From: [Clostridium] saccharolyticum WM1
Lineage (GTDB): Bacteria; Bacillota; Clostridia; Lachnospirales; Lachnospiraceae
Reading direction: 5' to 3'
Assembly (NCBI RefSeq): GCF_000144625.1
Contig: NC_014376.1
Coordinates: forward strand, 2,480,001 to 2,544,000
Length of the DNA stretch: 64,000 bases
In this document: one piece after another, positions 24,245-49,905 of the stretch
Layout: every line of letters starts with the position of its first letter
How positions within the stretch are numbered: the first letter of the stretch is position 1
The notes under the pieces: model-generated
What the model was told of the DNA's origin: nothing
The model's input: only the letters and a program-made list of their open reading frames with translations
Databases searched by the model: none
Translations under genes and position numbers: made by a program

Positions 24245-24273
24245 TTTACATTTATTCTATAATGGCGTATAAT
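24245..24273 (+). promoter_or_regulatory. Promoter of the sulfatase-ROK-MFS operon
   Basis: TTTACA (24245-24250) and TATAAT (24268-24273) are 17 bp apart, about 80 bases before the sulfatase start. It is divergent to the importer promoter about 100 bp away, so one regulator bound between them could control both; the ROK protein of this operon is the obvious candidate. Confidence 0.68.
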
Positions 24274-24354
24274 ACCCTTATTAAATTAGTAATTATTCCT
24301 TACTTTCTTTGTCATGGAATGTACCAAATAAGATTTCACTTTCAGGAGGAGCTT

Positions 24355-32558: not shown

Positions 32559-33467
32559 TTAGAAAGAAGGAACAACTGCTCCATCGTAGGTATCTTCAAT
32601 AAACTTTTTAATAGTATCGCTTGTCAAAGCTTCTACAAGAGCTTTTGACTTTTCACTGCTTTCCTCTCCTGCACGAACGGCAACGATGTTGCTGTAAAGG
32701 GTGGCTGCTATGGACTTGGCATCTTCTACAGCCAGTGCATCGGATACCTTTAAGCCTGCTTCAATGGCATAATTTCCATTGATAACTGCCACATCCACAT
32801 CGCTTAAGGACCGGGGAAGCTGAGCCGCCTCCACTTCAACGATCTTAAAATTCTTGTCATTCTTTACAATGTCATTCTTGGTAGCATTCAGTTCAACACC
32901 TTCTTTAAGGCCGATCAGCCCCTTGTCAGCCAGTAAAAGAAGAGCTCTTGCTTCGTTGGAAACGTCATTGGGAACTGCGATCTGGGCTCCTTCGGCAAGC
33001 TTATCAAGAGCATCTGTCTTTCCTGCATAAATACCAAAAGGCTCGTAATGAATGGCTGCTGCACTTACAAGATCAGTCCCCTTTTCCTCATTGAACTGGT
33101 CCAGGTAAGGCTTGTGCTGAAAATAGTTGGCATCCAGGTCTCCGGATTCAAGAGCCAGGTTTGGCTGTACATAATCCGTATATTCCTTTACCACCAGCTC
33201 ATATCCCTTTTCTTTCAGAAGATCCTTTGCAGCGTTTAAAATCTCTGCATGAGGAGCCGGAGTAGCTCCCACAACGATCTTTTCCAGATCACCGGTAACT
33301 TCCTTGCTCTCTGCTGCCGATGTCTCTTCTGCTTTAGCTGCCTCTGTTGCTGCAGCCTGTGTTGTCTCAGCCGCCGTAGTTCCAGGCGCTTCCTTGCTTC
33401 CTGCGCATGCGGTCAACGCTCCTGCGGCAATCAGTGCTGCCGTAAGTACATAAAGTGATTTTTTCAT
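32559..33467 (-). CDS. metQ: Methionine-binding lipoprotein of the NlpA/MetQ family
   Basis: A 302-residue extracellular lipoprotein that captures methionine for the MetNI transporter. The signal peptide ends in the lipobox LTACAGS (Cys at about 21). A low-complexity Ala/Glu/Thr linker follows, and then the NlpA domain: VGATPAPHAEILNAAKDLL, YTDYVQPNLALESGDLDANYFQHKPYL. The last phrase is highly typical of MetQ. AAGGAGGAACAATT precedes the start. It is the last gene of metN-metI-metQ. Confidence 0.95.
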   Translation of the reverse strand: MKKSLYVLTAALIAAGALTACAGSKEAPGTTAAETTQAAATEAAKAEETSAAESKEVTGDLEKIVVGATPAPHAEILNAAKDLLKEKGYELVVKEYTDYVQPNLALESGDLDANYFQHKPYLDQFNEEKGTDLVSAAAIHYEPFGIYAGKTDALDKLAEGAQIAVPNDVSNEARALLLLADKGLIGLKEGVELNATKNDIVKNDKNFKIVEVEAAQLPRSLSDVDVAVINGNYAIEAGLKVSDALAVEDAKSIAATLYSNIVAVRAGEESSEKSKALVEALTSDTIKKFIEDTYDGAVVPSF

Positions 33468-33513: not shown

Positions 33514-34179
33514 CTATTTAATTCTCTTATCACTCACTCTGGAAAGCTTCATTCCCGCTTCCTGGATGACCTGGACAATGATTACAAGAATTGCCACTGT
33601 TATAAACATCATTTCCGTCTGATAGCGGTAATATCCATATTTAATTGCAATATCTCCAAGTCCGCCTCCGCCTACAAAGCCTGCCATTGCAGAGTAGGCC
33701 AAAATAGTAGTGATGGATAGAGCCGCACCTACCAAGAGGGAAGGTTTTGCTTCCGGAAGAAGAACCTTCCATATAATCTGAAAGGTGGAGGACCCCATGG
33801 ATTTTGCCGCCTCGATCACTCCTGGATCCACTTCCTTAAAGGAGGCTTCCACGACTCTGGCCACATAGGGGGCTGAGGCTATTACCAACGGCGGGATTAC
33901 GGCTTTTGCTCCCAGGGTAGTGCCTACAATGGCCCTTGTAATAGGAATCACCATAATAAGTAAAATTATAAACGGAACAGACCGGAGCAGGTTTATAATC
34001 AGCCCCAGGATCCGTTGAAGCCAGGGAATGGGATAGATTCCGTCTTTATCCATAACCACCAGAATAATGCCTAAAGGAATTCCAATAAGATATGCAAAAA
34101 AGGAGGAGGAAAATGTCATGAACAAACTTTCCCATATACCAGTTTTCAGCATCTGTAAAACTGTTGCATCAAAGATCAT
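33514..34179 (-). CDS. metI: Methionine ABC transporter permease
   Basis: A 221-residue permease with five membrane helices. LLRSVPFIILLIMVIPITRAIVGT is the MetI signature, and VDPGVIEAAKSMGSSTFQIIWKVLLPEA is the loop contacting MetN. It overlaps metN by 11 bases. GAGGTGAAGGATC lies before the ATG. Confidence 0.95.
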   Translation of the reverse strand: MIFDATVLQMLKTGIWESLFMTFSSSFFAYLIGIPLGIILVVMDKDGIYPIPWLQRILGLIINLLRSVPFIILLIMVIPITRAIVGTTLGAKAVIPPLVIASAPYVARVVEASFKEVDPGVIEAAKSMGSSTFQIIWKVLLPEAKPSLLVGAALSITTILAYSAMAGFVGGGGLGDIAIKYGYYRYQTEMMFITVAILVIIVQVIQEAGMKLSRVSDKRIK

Positions 34180-35191
34180 GATCCTTCACCTCCTCATGAG
34201 TAATTCCCGCTGTTTTTAAATAATTAAGGATCCTGTTCTGATCTACTTCGTCTTCCGGAAGCTGTATGACCATCTGTCCCATAGCAGTTCCGCTAATATC
34301 CCGTGTCTCGGCGTGCATAATGTTCACCGGCACTTTACAGGCTAATATCATGTTTGCAAGAACCGGTTCAAAGGAAGAACGTCCGTCAAAGGAGATCCGG
34401 ACCCTTCTGGAGCCGCCGAACCGGATGACCTGTTCTGCTGCTTCCCCTAATATCAGCTGTCTGCCGATATTTGACTTTGGTTCCGAGAAAATTGCTCTTA
34501 CACTTCCCACTTCTGCAATGTGGCTTTGGTCAATAATGGCCACCCTGTCGCAAATAGCTTCTATTACCGTCATCTCATGGGTGATGACGACTACGGTAAC
34601 TCCCATGGAACGGTTAATGTCCTTTAAAAGGCCGAGAATGGATTTAGTGGTGTTTGGATCCAAAGCACTTGTGGCTTCATCGCAAAGCAGAACCTTTGGA
34701 TTCGTTGCAAGGGCTCTTGCAATGGCGACCCTTTGCTTCTGTCCGCCTGATAACTGGGCCGGATATGCCTTTGCCCTTTCCTTAAGGCCTACGATTTCCA
34801 AAAGCTCCATAGCTCTTTTCATTCCTTCTTTTTTGGAAACCCCTGCAATTTCCAAAGGAAAGCACACATTTTGTAGTACATTCCTCTGGGCCAGCAGGTT
34901 GAACTGCTGAAAGATCATACCCATGGACTGTCTGGCCAGCCTCTTCTCCCTGGGCCGCATGGATGCCAGACTTTTATTCTCAAAAAGCACATCTCCCGAG
35001 GTAGGTATTTCCAGATAATTGATACAGCGGACCAATGTACTTTTTCCTGCTCCGCTCAAACCGATAATTCCAAATATCTCCCCCTGTTCAATGGACAGGT
35101 TAATATCATCTAGGGCCTTTATGGGACCGTTTGCGGTACGGAACTCTTTTCCTAGTCCTACCAGCTGGATAATAGGTTCTGCTGACTGCAT
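34169..35191 (-). CDS. metN: Methionine ABC transporter ATP-binding protein
   Basis: A 340-residue ATPase. Walker A is GLSGAGKST, the ABC signature LSGGQKQR, and Walker B VLLCDEATSALDP. The last 80 residues form the NIL domain (VRISFDGRSSFEPVLANMILACKVPVNIMHAE), which binds methionine and inhibits transport when methionine is abundant in the cell. This domain identifies MetN rather than a generic amino-acid ATPase. Expression appears to be controlled by the leader described upstream. Confidence 0.95.
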   Translation of the reverse strand: MQSAEPIIQLVGLGKEFRTANGPIKALDDINLSIEQGEIFGIIGLSGAGKSTLVRCINYLEIPTSGDVLFENKSLASMRPREKRLARQSMGMIFQQFNLLAQRNVLQNVCFPLEIAGVSKKEGMKRAMELLEIVGLKERAKAYPAQLSGGQKQRVAIARALATNPKVLLCDEATSALDPNTTKSILGLLKDINRSMGVTVVVITHEMTVIEAICDRVAIIDQSHIAEVGSVRAIFSEPKSNIGRQLILGEAAEQVIRFGGSRRVRISFDGRSSFEPVLANMILACKVPVNIMHAETRDISGTAMGQMVIQLPEDEVDQNRILNYLKTAGITHEEVKDHDL

Positions 35192-35282: not shown

Positions 35283-35318
35283 AAGGCCGCAAGCCCTGCA
35301 CAGACTTGCGACCTAAAA
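35283..35318 (-). terminator. Attenuator terminator between Met-rich leader ORF and metN
   Basis: On the minus strand GGTCGCAAG (35305-35313) pairs with CTTGCGGCC (35285-35293), all nine positions paired with one G-U, and then TTTTTG. It lies about 90 bases before metN and 60 bases after the leader ORF stop. It would end transcription unless prevented. Confidence 0.82.
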
Positions 35319-35375
35319 TTTCCGCGTTTTGCTGCTTTCAGCGAATTCCAATCACAATCCATACAAATGAAACGA

Positions 35376-35471
35376 TTATCGTAATTTTATGCACTCTGAT
35401 ACACGACACATCATCATACACATGCCGTTCATCTGATCCATATTCATCTGCATGGTTTTTAACTGGTTCAT
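35376..35471 (-). CDS. Methionine-rich leader peptide of the metNIQ operon
   Basis: A 31-codon ORF too short for routine gene calling. It starts at ATG 35471 after GGAAGGAG, with 8 bases spacing, and stops at TAA 35376. Nine of 31 residues are Met: positions 1, 7, 9, 11, 14, 17, 19, 20 and 21, ending in a run MCMMMC. Three Cys are also present. It lies between a consensus promoter and a strong terminator before metN, the exact layout of ribosome-mediated attenuation. With scarce charged tRNA-Met the ribosome would stall in the Met run and could prevent terminator folding. A metal-binding small protein is the alternative reading. I know of no described Met leader peptide in this group, but I cannot search. 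Confidence 0.75.
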   Translation of the reverse strand: MNQLKTMQMNMDQMNGMCMMMCRVSECIKLR

Positions 35472-35529
35472 GGCAGCTACTCCTTCCACTGATTCCTATA
35501 GGCAAACTAGGAATTACTTTATGAGCCGT

Positions 35530-35558
35530 ATTTTACGCCCTCTTCCTGTTTTTGTCAA
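35530..35558 (-). promoter_or_regulatory. Promoter of the leader-metNIQ transcript
   Basis: On the minus strand TTGACA (35553-35558) and TAAAAT (35530-35535) are separated by 17 bp. Transcription would begin near 35523, about 50 bases before the leader ORF. No SAM-I riboswitch consensus lies between this promoter and metN. Confidence 0.82.
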
Positions 35559-46831: not shown

Positions 46832-49471
46832 TTATGAAAGCTGGGAAAGCCTATCTTTCACCTGTTCCATCATCTGAGCATATTTCTCAAGCTTTGCTTT
46901 TTCCTCTTCGATCTTTGCCGCCGGAGCCTTGCTAACGAACTTTTCGTTGCTAAGCATCCCTTGGACACGGGACAATTCCTTGCTTAAACGCTCTTCTTCT
47001 TTCTTTAACCGCTCAATTTCTTTTTCAATATCCACCAGCTCTGCAAAAGGCATGTAAATAACTGCCTGATGGATCACTGCGGATACCGCATCGTCTGCTA
47101 TGCCGCTTTTATCCTTCTGCAGATATACTTCTCCGGCATAACCCAGTGTGGCAAAGAACACCTTGCTGTGTTCAAAAATATCAAGAATCTCCTGATTTTC
47201 AGAAACAACATATACCTTTGCCTTTCTGCTTGGCGGAACGTTCATGGAAGTGCGTACGTTCCGGATCCCTCTTACGGCTTCCTTAATGGTTTCCACCGCA
47301 TGTTCCTCTGTTTCAAAGCTCCAATCCTCCCGGTATTCCGGCCAGCTGGAAATCATAATGGACTCTTCCTCCTCCTGGAGATTGCAGAAGATTTCCTCCG
47401 TAAGGAAGGGCATATAAGGATGGAGAAGCTTTAAGGAGTTGATCAACACGGTTTTTAAGGTCCAGATGGCTGCCGCCTTTGTTTTATCCTCATCGTCCCA
47501 CAGCCTTGGCTTTACCATCTCAATATACCAATCGCAGAATTCCTCCCAGATAAAGTCATAAACCTTCTGAAGGGCAATTCCCAGCTCATATTTATCCAGG
47601 TTTTCTGTCACATCCTTTGCAAGGGTGTTCGCCTTTGACAGGATCCATTTGTCCGCAATGGTAAGTTCTTTAAGTTCTGCCTTGGCATCCGGTGCCTTTT
47701 CAATATTCATCATAATGAAACGGGATGCATTCCAAACTTTATTGGCAAAGTTTCTGCTTGCCTCTACGCGCTCCCAGTAAAAACGCATGTCATTGCCAGG
47801 TGCATTACCGGTGATCAGAGTCATTCGCAGGGCATCGGCACCGTACTTTTCGATAACCTCCAGAGGATCGATTCCATTTCCCAGGGATTTGCTCATCTTG
47901 CGGCCTTCCGAATCCCTTACCAGGCCGTGGATCAGCACCGTATGAAAAGGAAGCTTTCCGGTCTGCTCGATTCCGGAAAATACCATGCGGATAACCCAGA
48001 AGAAAATTATATCGTAGCCTGTAACCAGCACATCAGTTGGGTAGAAGTACTCTAAATCCTCTGTTTTTTCTGGCCAGCCTAAGGTGGAGAAAGGCCAGAG
48101 AGCAGAGGAAAACCAGGTATCAAGGGTATCCTCATCCTGAGTCAGATGGGTTCCTCCGCATTTGGGACATACTGTGGGAACTTCTTTTGATACGATGATC
48201 TCTCCGCACTGGTCACAATAATATGCCGGGATCCGATGTCCCCACCAAAGTTGCCTGGAAATACACCAGTCACGGATATTTTCCAGCCAGTGAAGATAGA
48301 TCTTATCAAACCTCTCGGGAACGAATTTCAGCTTTTCTGTTTTTAACGCTTCAATTGCCGGCTTAGCCATCTCCTCCATCTTGACAAACCACTGCTGTTT
48401 TACCATAGGCTCTACGGTGGTCTTACACCGGTCATGGGTCCCTACTGCATGGGTATGGGGAGCCACCTTCACCAAAAGCCCCAGTTCCTCAAGATCCTTA
48501 ACCATTGCCTTTCTGGCTTCATACCGCTCCATGCCGTGATACTTGCTGCCTGGAAGGTTAATGGTCGCATCGTCATTCATGATGTTGATTTCTGGAAGGC
48601 GGTGTCTCTTTCCTACCTCAAAGTCATTGGGGTCGTGGGCTGGTGTGATCTTTACGCAGCCGGTTCCGAACTCTTTATCCACATAGGCATCTGCAACAAC
48701 CGGTATTTCCCGGTCTGTAAGGGGAAGCTTCAGCATCTTGCCAACCAGGTCCTGGTACCGCTCATCTTCCGGATTGACTGCCACAGCAGTATCTCCAAGA
48801 AGAGTTTCCGGTCTGGTGGTGGCTATCTCCACAAACCTCCCCTCTTCTCCGGCAATGGGATACTTGATGTGCCAGAAGAAACCATTCTGGTCCTCATGCT
48901 CCACTTCTGCATCTGAAATAGAAGTCTGGCATACAGGACACCAGTTTACAATACGGGAGCCCTTGTAAATATAGCCCTTTTCGTATAAACGGATGAAAAC
49001 CTCCTGTACGGCTTCAGAGCAGCCTTCATCCATGGTAAAACGCTCCCTGTCCCAGTCAGCAGAGGAGCCCATCTTATGAAGCTGGTTGATGATCCTTCCG
49101 CCGTATTCTTTTCTCCAGTCCCAGCATTTTTCCAGGAATCCGTCCCTGCCCAGTTCCTCTTTGTCTATCCCCTGTTTCTTTAAACTCTCTATCACCTTGA
49201 CTTCCGTAGCAATGGCCGCATGGTCCGTACCCGGCTGCCAAAGAGCCTCATAGCCCTGCATCCTCTTATAGCGGATCAGTATATCCTGCATGGTGTTATC
49301 CAGAGCGTGGCCCATGTGAAGCTGTCCCGTAATATTGGGCGGCGGCATTACAATGGTAAAGGGCTTTTTATCCTTATTGGGCTGTGCACGAAAATACTTC
49401 TTATCCAGCCATTTCTCATAAAGTTTTCCTTCAATTCCCGCCGGATTATAGGTTTTTTCCAATTCTTTCAT
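46832..49471 (-). CDS. valS: Valyl-tRNA synthetase
   Basis: Class I synthetase charging tRNA-Val, 879 residues. The HIGH motif is [13 protein letters not shown] (about residue 45); the KMSKS motif is [14 protein letters not shown] (about 525). The editing domain lies between them, with two Cys pairs (WCPVCQ; CDQCGE...CPKCGG) that bind zinc. The C-terminal 70 residues form the usual coiled coil ([21 protein letters not shown]). The start is ATG 49471 after GGAAGGAGATAATC; an in-frame codon at 49546 precedes it without support. A T-box leader controls it. Confidence 0.97.
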
Positions 49472-49595
49472 GATTATCTCCTTCCTACTGACCGCCCCAT
49501 ATTGCCCAGGGCGTATATCTTTCTTCTGATGGTGGCAGTGAAACAAAGACGCTTGCGCCGGGCTCTTTTTGATTCATGAGACGTAACTTCTTACG

Positions 49596-49905
49596 AAAAA
49601 AAAGCCCTCTGCATCTCCAGGATGCAAAGGGCGAATCAACGCGGTACCACCTTTATTCATATGGCAGAACAGCCATACCTCATGCAGCCTGTAACGCAGC
49701 CAAGCGTGAAAGCCTACTGAATCTGGATCTTAAAATTTCAGCCTTCCGGTTCTGAAGCTACCTTCCGCATATACTTCCTTAACCGTCTTTCAGCCGGTGG
49801 ACGGTTTTCTCTTTCAGGGTTATAAGCGTACTCCTCTTCTTCTCTACCTTTTCCTTATTCCCACCCATGCTTTTGAGGCTTCAAGGTATGCCTGCATGGT
49901 GTTTT
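49596..49905 (-). promoter_or_regulatory. T-box riboswitch of valS
   Basis: On the minus strand the T-box core AAAGGTGGTACCGCG lies at 49640-49654, followed directly by a terminator hairpin (GCCCTTTGCATC / GATGCAGAGGGC, then T8) at 49596-49633. About 250 bases of structured leader precede it, corresponding to Stem I to III. Uncharged tRNA-Val would stabilise the antiterminator and switch valS on. I did not assign the specifier codon. Confidence 0.93.

Follow-up and report, generated by a model that had tools for sequence, protein, structure and literature searches.

A candidate trp-type attenuator with a methionine- and cysteine-rich leader peptide upstream of metNIQ in Lachnospiraceae

Introduction

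In Firmicutes, SAM riboswitches or Met T-boxes are usually regarded as the sensors of methionine supply. How, then, might an operon for methionine uptake be controlled where its leader has the hallmarks of neither? This question is raised by the metNIQ operon of [Clostridium] saccharolyticum WM1, which lies on the minus strand of the 64,000-nucleotide stretch of DNA analysed here (the window). The genome (G000), a single contig of 4.66 Mb, has its closest named relatives in Lacrimispora and other Lachnospiraceae. A reading of the sequence had proposed that a short Met-rich open reading frame (ORF) and a terminator form an attenuator at this locus (the original prediction). Our computational analysis supports that interpretation: metNIQ is very probably preceded by a ribosome-mediated transcription attenuator of the trp type, which would sense methionine and, probably, cysteine supply.

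Results

Anatomy of the metNIQ leader

The features of the leader and operon are as follows.

35530..35558 (-), sigma-A-like promoter TTGACA-17-TAAAAT; TTGACA starts at 35558 and TAAAAT ends at 35530
35526-35538 (-), palindrome GCGTANAATACGC containing the -10 region, a possible operator, conserved in related metN leaders
35492..35514 (-), predicted 5' hairpin AUUCCUA/UAGGAAU, upstream of the ribosome-binding site
35480..35485 (-), Shine-Dalgarno sequence AAGGAG, 8 nt 5' of the ATG
35376..35471 (-), leader ORF of 31 codons plus TAA; ATG at 35471, TAA at 35378-35376
35443..35455 (-), segment 1, CCAUGCAGAUGAA, codons 6-10, 13 bp with segment 2
35359..35371 (-), segment 2, UUCAUUUGUAUGG, directly 3' of the stop codon, partner of segment 1
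35341..35365 (-), antiterminator 5' strand UGUAUGGAUUGUGAUUGGAAUUCGC in the post-stop RNA, including the conserved motif UGUAUGGAUUGUGAU
35297..35325 (-), antiterminator 3' strand GCGGAAAUUUUAGGUCGCAAGUCUGUGCA, including the terminator 5' arm and pairing with UGUAUGGAUUGUGAUUGGAAUUCGC
35284..35314 (-), intrinsic terminator, 13-bp stem and 5-nt loop; U tract 35284-35280
34169..35191 (-), metN (ATPase), best NCBIfam match, below the curated cut-off
33514..34179 (-), metI (permease), best NCBIfam match, passing the curated cut-off
32559..33467 (-), metQ (binding lipoprotein), best NCBIfam match, below the curated cut-off

The promoter agrees with the sigma-A consensus at 11 of 12 positions with a spacer of 17 nt, as the original prediction had held, and the predicted 31-codon ORF with its ribosome-binding site and nine Met codons was likewise recovered. 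The ORF encodes MNQLKTMQMNMDQMNGMCMMMCRVSECIKLR, with Met at codons 1, 7, 9, 11, 14, 17, 19, 20 and 21 (nine with the start codon) and Cys at codons 18, 22 and 27. Several details of that reading were revised: the ORF does not end in Met-Cys-Met-Met-Met-Cys, RVSECIKLR coming after it; codons 16-31 contain four Met codons, not the five ascribed to the last half; and the terminator stem measures 13 bp rather than 9. The small GCTG/CAGC hairpin noticed between ORF and terminator is swallowed by an antiterminator pairing, UGUAUGGAUUGUGAUUGGAAUUCGC with GCGGAAAUUUUAGGUCGCAAGUCUGUGCA, which had not been obvious before.

The leader RNA folds with a z score of -4.71, none of 200 shuffles being equally stable. 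An Rfam search of the leader gave no family at gathering score, five permissive matches (E 0.48-8.9) lying far below it; in this search there was no SAM aptamer (SAM-I) and no match to the T-box covariance model. The reported absence of SAM-I and Met T-box elements is thereby corroborated, no aptamer shares the leader, and a SAM riboswitch or T-box was rejected as its control. Elsewhere in the window, a T-box leader (108 bits; 49624-49853, minus strand) lies ahead of ORF 46832-49546, which from its sequence we take to be valyl-tRNA-synthetase-like.

Three predicted, mutually exclusive RNA structures

Examination of alternative folds, proposed with the original prediction, yielded three structures that exclude one another. 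The 1:2 structure is a 13-bp helix joining CCAUGCAGAUGAA, in the region of Met codons 7-9, to UUCAUUUGUAUGG after the stop; the 2:3 structure is the antiterminator, which competes both with the 1:2 helix and with the terminator; and the 3:4 structure is the terminator itself. When the RNA was cut before the terminator 3' arm, all 12 placements of the ribosomal A-site that were tried (codons 3 to 32) gave the antiterminator as the minimum-energy fold, and the 1:2 helix formed when the ribosome was omitted. In the full-length RNA the terminator won in every ribosome state tried, and antitermination must therefore be kinetic, as in known attenuators.

A promoter, a translated-looking Met/Cys ORF and three exclusive RNA structures were found by sequence and comparison, and we favor the following attenuation mechanism. 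With charged Met (or Cys) tRNA available, the ribosome would complete the ORF, the 1:2 helix would form behind it and the terminator would follow; the helix formed behind the released ribosome would be what blocks the antiterminator. Alternatively, a ribosome at the stop codon could hinder segment 2, but in a crude folding model a ribosome resting there did not block the antiterminator. A stall at Met codons 7, 9 or 11 would mask segment 1, allowing segment 2 to pair with the terminator 5' arm and RNA polymerase to read into metNIQ, and a stall in the Met/Cys cluster further on (codons 17-22) would likewise leave the antiterminator free. With no translation at all, 1:2 would form and transcription would terminate. 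Charged tRNA would thus decide termination. Since the sensor itself starts with fMet, a non-monotonic response to methionine is expected, on at moderate and off at extreme starvation: in the latter case initiation of the leader also stops, which should switch the operon off again.

Conservation of the leader among related metN loci

Conservation of the Met codons, ORF and terminator, an expectation attached to the original prediction, was examined in 80 named metN loci, which are those nearest to the query from a genome scan and not a random sample. A Met-rich ORF lies upstream of metN in 71 of them; a T-box takes its place in four (L068, L091, L093 and L101), a terminator occurs without the ORF in two (L083 and L085), neither element is present in two (L063 and L087), and for one (L112) only 8 nt before metN were available. 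With the window included, 69 of 72 loci have a detected terminator behind the ORF, the detector having missed L056, L067 and L074. Retention of the terminator with loss of the ORF, which would speak against attenuation, is thus seen in two of the 80 loci and not generally. In these two, the 520-nt region before metN has retained promoter and terminator but not the Met ORF, a natural loss of the sensor. Within the genus, the leader DNA is present in 24 of 25 genomes, the missing one being 67% complete, and the peptide profile also matches 24 of 25.

Exchange of strands among 28 non-redundant loci was used to look for covariation. With terminator arms swapped, none of 2000 permutations equalled the native arms; with antiterminator strands swapped, 16 of 2000 were as good; and with 1:2 strands swapped, 695 of 2000 were as good, giving no covariation signal for that helix in these loci. 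Native antiterminator partners formed 382 of 435 pairs against a permutation maximum of 380 (2000 permutations; register fitted), a comparison that favors native pairs since the registers for the antiterminator, 1:2 and CRM counts (see below) were chosen to suit each strand's native partner best. These comparisons indicate that terminator and antiterminator covary, the antiterminator moderately. The antiterminator folding energy falls below a z of -2 against shuffles in 16 of 69 loci and is weak in the window (z -0.53); the 1:2 helix has a single register in 37 of the 46 loci examined. Allowing up to three mismatches, the motif UGUAUGGAUUGUGAU was found in 41 of 69 loci, 34 times after the stop codon and seven times inside the ORF (L042, L043, L078, L099, L102, L104 and L108). 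Inside the ORF it uses frames 0, 1 and 2, which indicates that it is conserved as RNA.

Codon conservation and the place of cysteine

Excluding the start codon, the composition is 25.7% Met and 10.4% Cys. Across 69 distinct ORFs, conservation reaches 67 and 68 sequences at two Met columns and 68 at one Cys column, where the codon is TGC in 49 and TGT in 19. As both synonyms are in use, what is preserved here is the Cys codon or residue rather than a set RNA sequence; and because the column is as strongly conserved as Met, cysteine is probably sensed as well, by way of charged tRNA-Cys. An invariant Cys column with both synonyms fits residue-specific conservation and codon sensing alike. A conserved Gln is CAG in 43 of 43 cases and the next Asn is AAT in 50 of 50, both within the 1:2 helix strand; judged from these columns, part of the Met-codon conservation stems from RNA pairing, not decoding. 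As a coding signal, the third-codon-position excess in close ORFs is weak (0.117, 0.156 and 0.185).

Distribution of Met/Cys-rich leaders

The peptide profile matched 8 of 150 Lachnospiraceae representatives, seven times before metN; match L122 was dropped, there being no metN at that place. In the order-wide draw it matched 6 of 344 genomes, five of them of the window's genus, and in the class-wide draw 2 of 341, both of that genus. We also applied a profile-free test, which picks, no more than 450 nt from metN, the short ORF richest in Met and Cys, calls it positive at a score of at least 3 and obtains the expectation from dinucleotide shuffles. By this test 16 of 79 metN loci of Lachnospiraceae genus representatives were positive against 0.09 expected, and the positives L148, L164, L166, L201 and L208 have little in common except their Met/Cys richness. 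Among metQ-first operons, 4 of 15 loci scored at least 3. Outside Lachnospiraceae, one of 80 metN loci was positive (L233), although one of those 80 genomes does belong to the family. The positive locus, from another family (G987), carries the Met/Cys-rich ORF MKAINYLNMNMCMAMMMRTKDCCIMRCFMG before metN, with a hairpin and a T run behind it.

SAM riboswitches occur in 122 of 150 Lachnospiraceae genomes, and none of those listed lay near metNIQ when compared by eye with the best metI places in 82 genomes. The sole SAM riboswitch above cut-off in the window's genome precedes metK; a glycine riboswitch (L113, 1838-1929, plus strand) lies close by.

A second leader architecture ahead of sulfur genes

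Leaders of metQ-first operons contain Met/Cys runs followed, still within the ORF, by a strand CUCCCGGGCA complementary to the terminator arm UGCCCGGGAG (type II, as distinct from the type I arrangement before metNIQ). Profiles A3 and A4, built from metQ-first leader peptides, define the CRM set; they match 23 of 397 and 20 of 215 Lachnospiraceae genomes, the window's genome not among them, and matches to their own source sequences, which were found again, are not independent. Of 50 rows, 30 were kept, within L305-L322, L328-L331 and L339-L353 (other Lachnospiraceae). Eight repeats of places already in the set were removed (L332-L338 and L349), as were three metQ leaders in which the CRM motif is absent (L306, L307 and L320) and nine rows that were weak or in which the motif was not found (L323-L327, L346, L350, L351 and L354).

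In 27 of the 30 loci with C-R-M-x-x-S, 9 or 10 of 10 antiterminator pairs can form, with changes from G-C to A-U or from C-G to U-A at four positions. The 15 distinct pairs of strands gave 140 of 150 pairings against a permutation maximum of 138 (5000 permutations; register fitted), and one R-to-Q change in the peptide is attributable to the RNA pairing. The Arg codon of the motif is CGA in 18 of 19 leaders. From the last Cys codon, 14 nt are left to the antiterminator strand, a distance that would approximate the downstream footprint of a ribosome. An Rfam search of 19 CRM loci gave no match, and neither the type I nor the type II architecture matched Rfam.

Downstream of the CRM leaders lie genes for O-acetylhomoserine sulfhydrylase (metY; L329 above the curated cut-off, and 13 others whose N termini look similar by eye), cysteine synthase (cysK; L322, above cut-off) and MetQ (eight loci by blastp, and L345). 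Matches below cut-off were obtained for amino-acid/cystine-type binding proteins (L314 and L328), an enzyme of the cystathionine gamma-synthase/lyase type (L352), a second OAH-sulfhydrylase type (L347) and a partial protein resembling sulfopropanediol dehydratase (L311); the downstream proteins of L310 and L315 gave no match. In L313 and L319, the leader is followed by an ORF in which a MetQ domain is apparently fused to an amino-acid binding protein.

The C-R-M motif is invariant in 19 aligned CRM leaders, and Gly (54 of 69) and Arg (32 of 69) also recur in the ORFs of type I, as would be anticipated if the nascent peptide, through a C-terminal motif (M..MCRM), stalled the ribosome from within the tunnel on SAM or Met and so set the same RNA switch. 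We consider such arrest unlikely: ORF length and C terminus are variable, the invariant Gln and Asn codons are accounted for by RNA pairing, and divergent genera retain Met/Cys richness alone.

The palindrome over the promoter

Of 70 related metN leaders, 31 carry the palindrome GCGTANAATACGC over the -10 region with at most two mismatches, against 0.65 expected, and it is a possible operator. Were metNIQ governed by a repressor at this site, the terminator could be constitutive or an ordinary 3' end and the ORF a product of chance, and the two loci with a terminator and no ORF would fit. That the repressor replaces attenuation is nevertheless very improbable, as the Met-rich ORF is far above chance and the antiterminator strand is co-conserved with the terminator arm; the two are compatible, and a repressor could act alongside attenuation. 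A second match to the palindrome, with one mismatch, lies at 24265-24277 of the window (plus strand). That the peptide itself is functional, for instance as a metal-binding peptide, accords with its Met/Cys-rich composition but is hardly credible, given that the ORF sits before a terminator, that the antiterminator strand can fall within the ORF in each of the three frames and that 105 clusters of similar small proteins carry no Pfam domain and no name except 'hypothetical protein'.

Discussion

Trp-type attenuation of metNIQ would mean that, across numerous genera of a major gut family, a translated Met/Cys ORF and its RNA switch stand in for a SAM riboswitch or T-box. It also presents a puzzle, in that translation of the sensor cannot begin without the very amino acid that serves as signal. 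As the switch depends on a ribosome close behind RNA polymerase, it offers a natural locus at which to test transcription-translation coupling in Firmicutes. More broadly, Lachnospiraceae may possess a leader-peptide code in which AUG and UGY are read together, type I and type II attenuators giving metNIQ/metQNI, metY, cysK, cystine-like uptake and further sulfur genes a common Met/Cys control and the SAM riboswitch being left to metK; from the sequence comparisons, we see this proposal as evenly balanced between right and wrong.

A search of the open literature, with most subscription papers and all preprints outside its scope, returned nothing on Met/Cys leader peptides of this kind in Lachnospiraceae or Clostridia, and a single published metNIQ leader peptide, from Streptomyces. 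Of the usual RNA controls of methionine genes, a T-box takes the corresponding position at four of the 80 metN loci compared, and neither it nor SAM-I is found in the window's leader.

In enterobacterial attenuators of the trp and his type, control codons lie in segment 1, the stop codon lies between segments 1 and 2, the structures 1:2, 2:3 and 3:4 are exclusive, and an intrinsic terminator follows. The metNIQ leader shares the control codons in segment 1, the placement of the stop, the competing 2:3 and 3:4 structures, with a candidate 1:2 helix, and the terminator, whereas its signal would be Met (and Cys) and its host belongs to Lachnospiraceae; the likeness is one of layout, with no sequence relation claimed. 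Leader peptides for Leu and Ile have reportedly been found in Staphylococcus and Listeria. His leader peptides precede hisS/hisZ of bacilli (PMC2965389), and leader-peptide attenuation is common to these Firmicutes systems and the metNIQ leader, the amino acids and operons being different.

Two further systems likewise have a short ORF with control codons for Cys: leader peptides of Actinobacteria, reported to lack a terminator (PMC1262725), and the cysS motif of Rhodobacterales, which has one (PMC8632094). Both differ from the metNIQ leader in genes and phyla and in having no Met run. The gene context is shared by metL of Streptomyces lividans, a leader peptide before metNIQ which is described by its Met and Thr (PMC8079986). 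Unlike the leader analysed here, metL is leaderless and is reported to have no typical terminator, and it is one sequence; yet its end (…RCMCRRMCAF) interleaves Met and Cys, by our own observation, before metNIQ just as the present leader does (PMC8079986).
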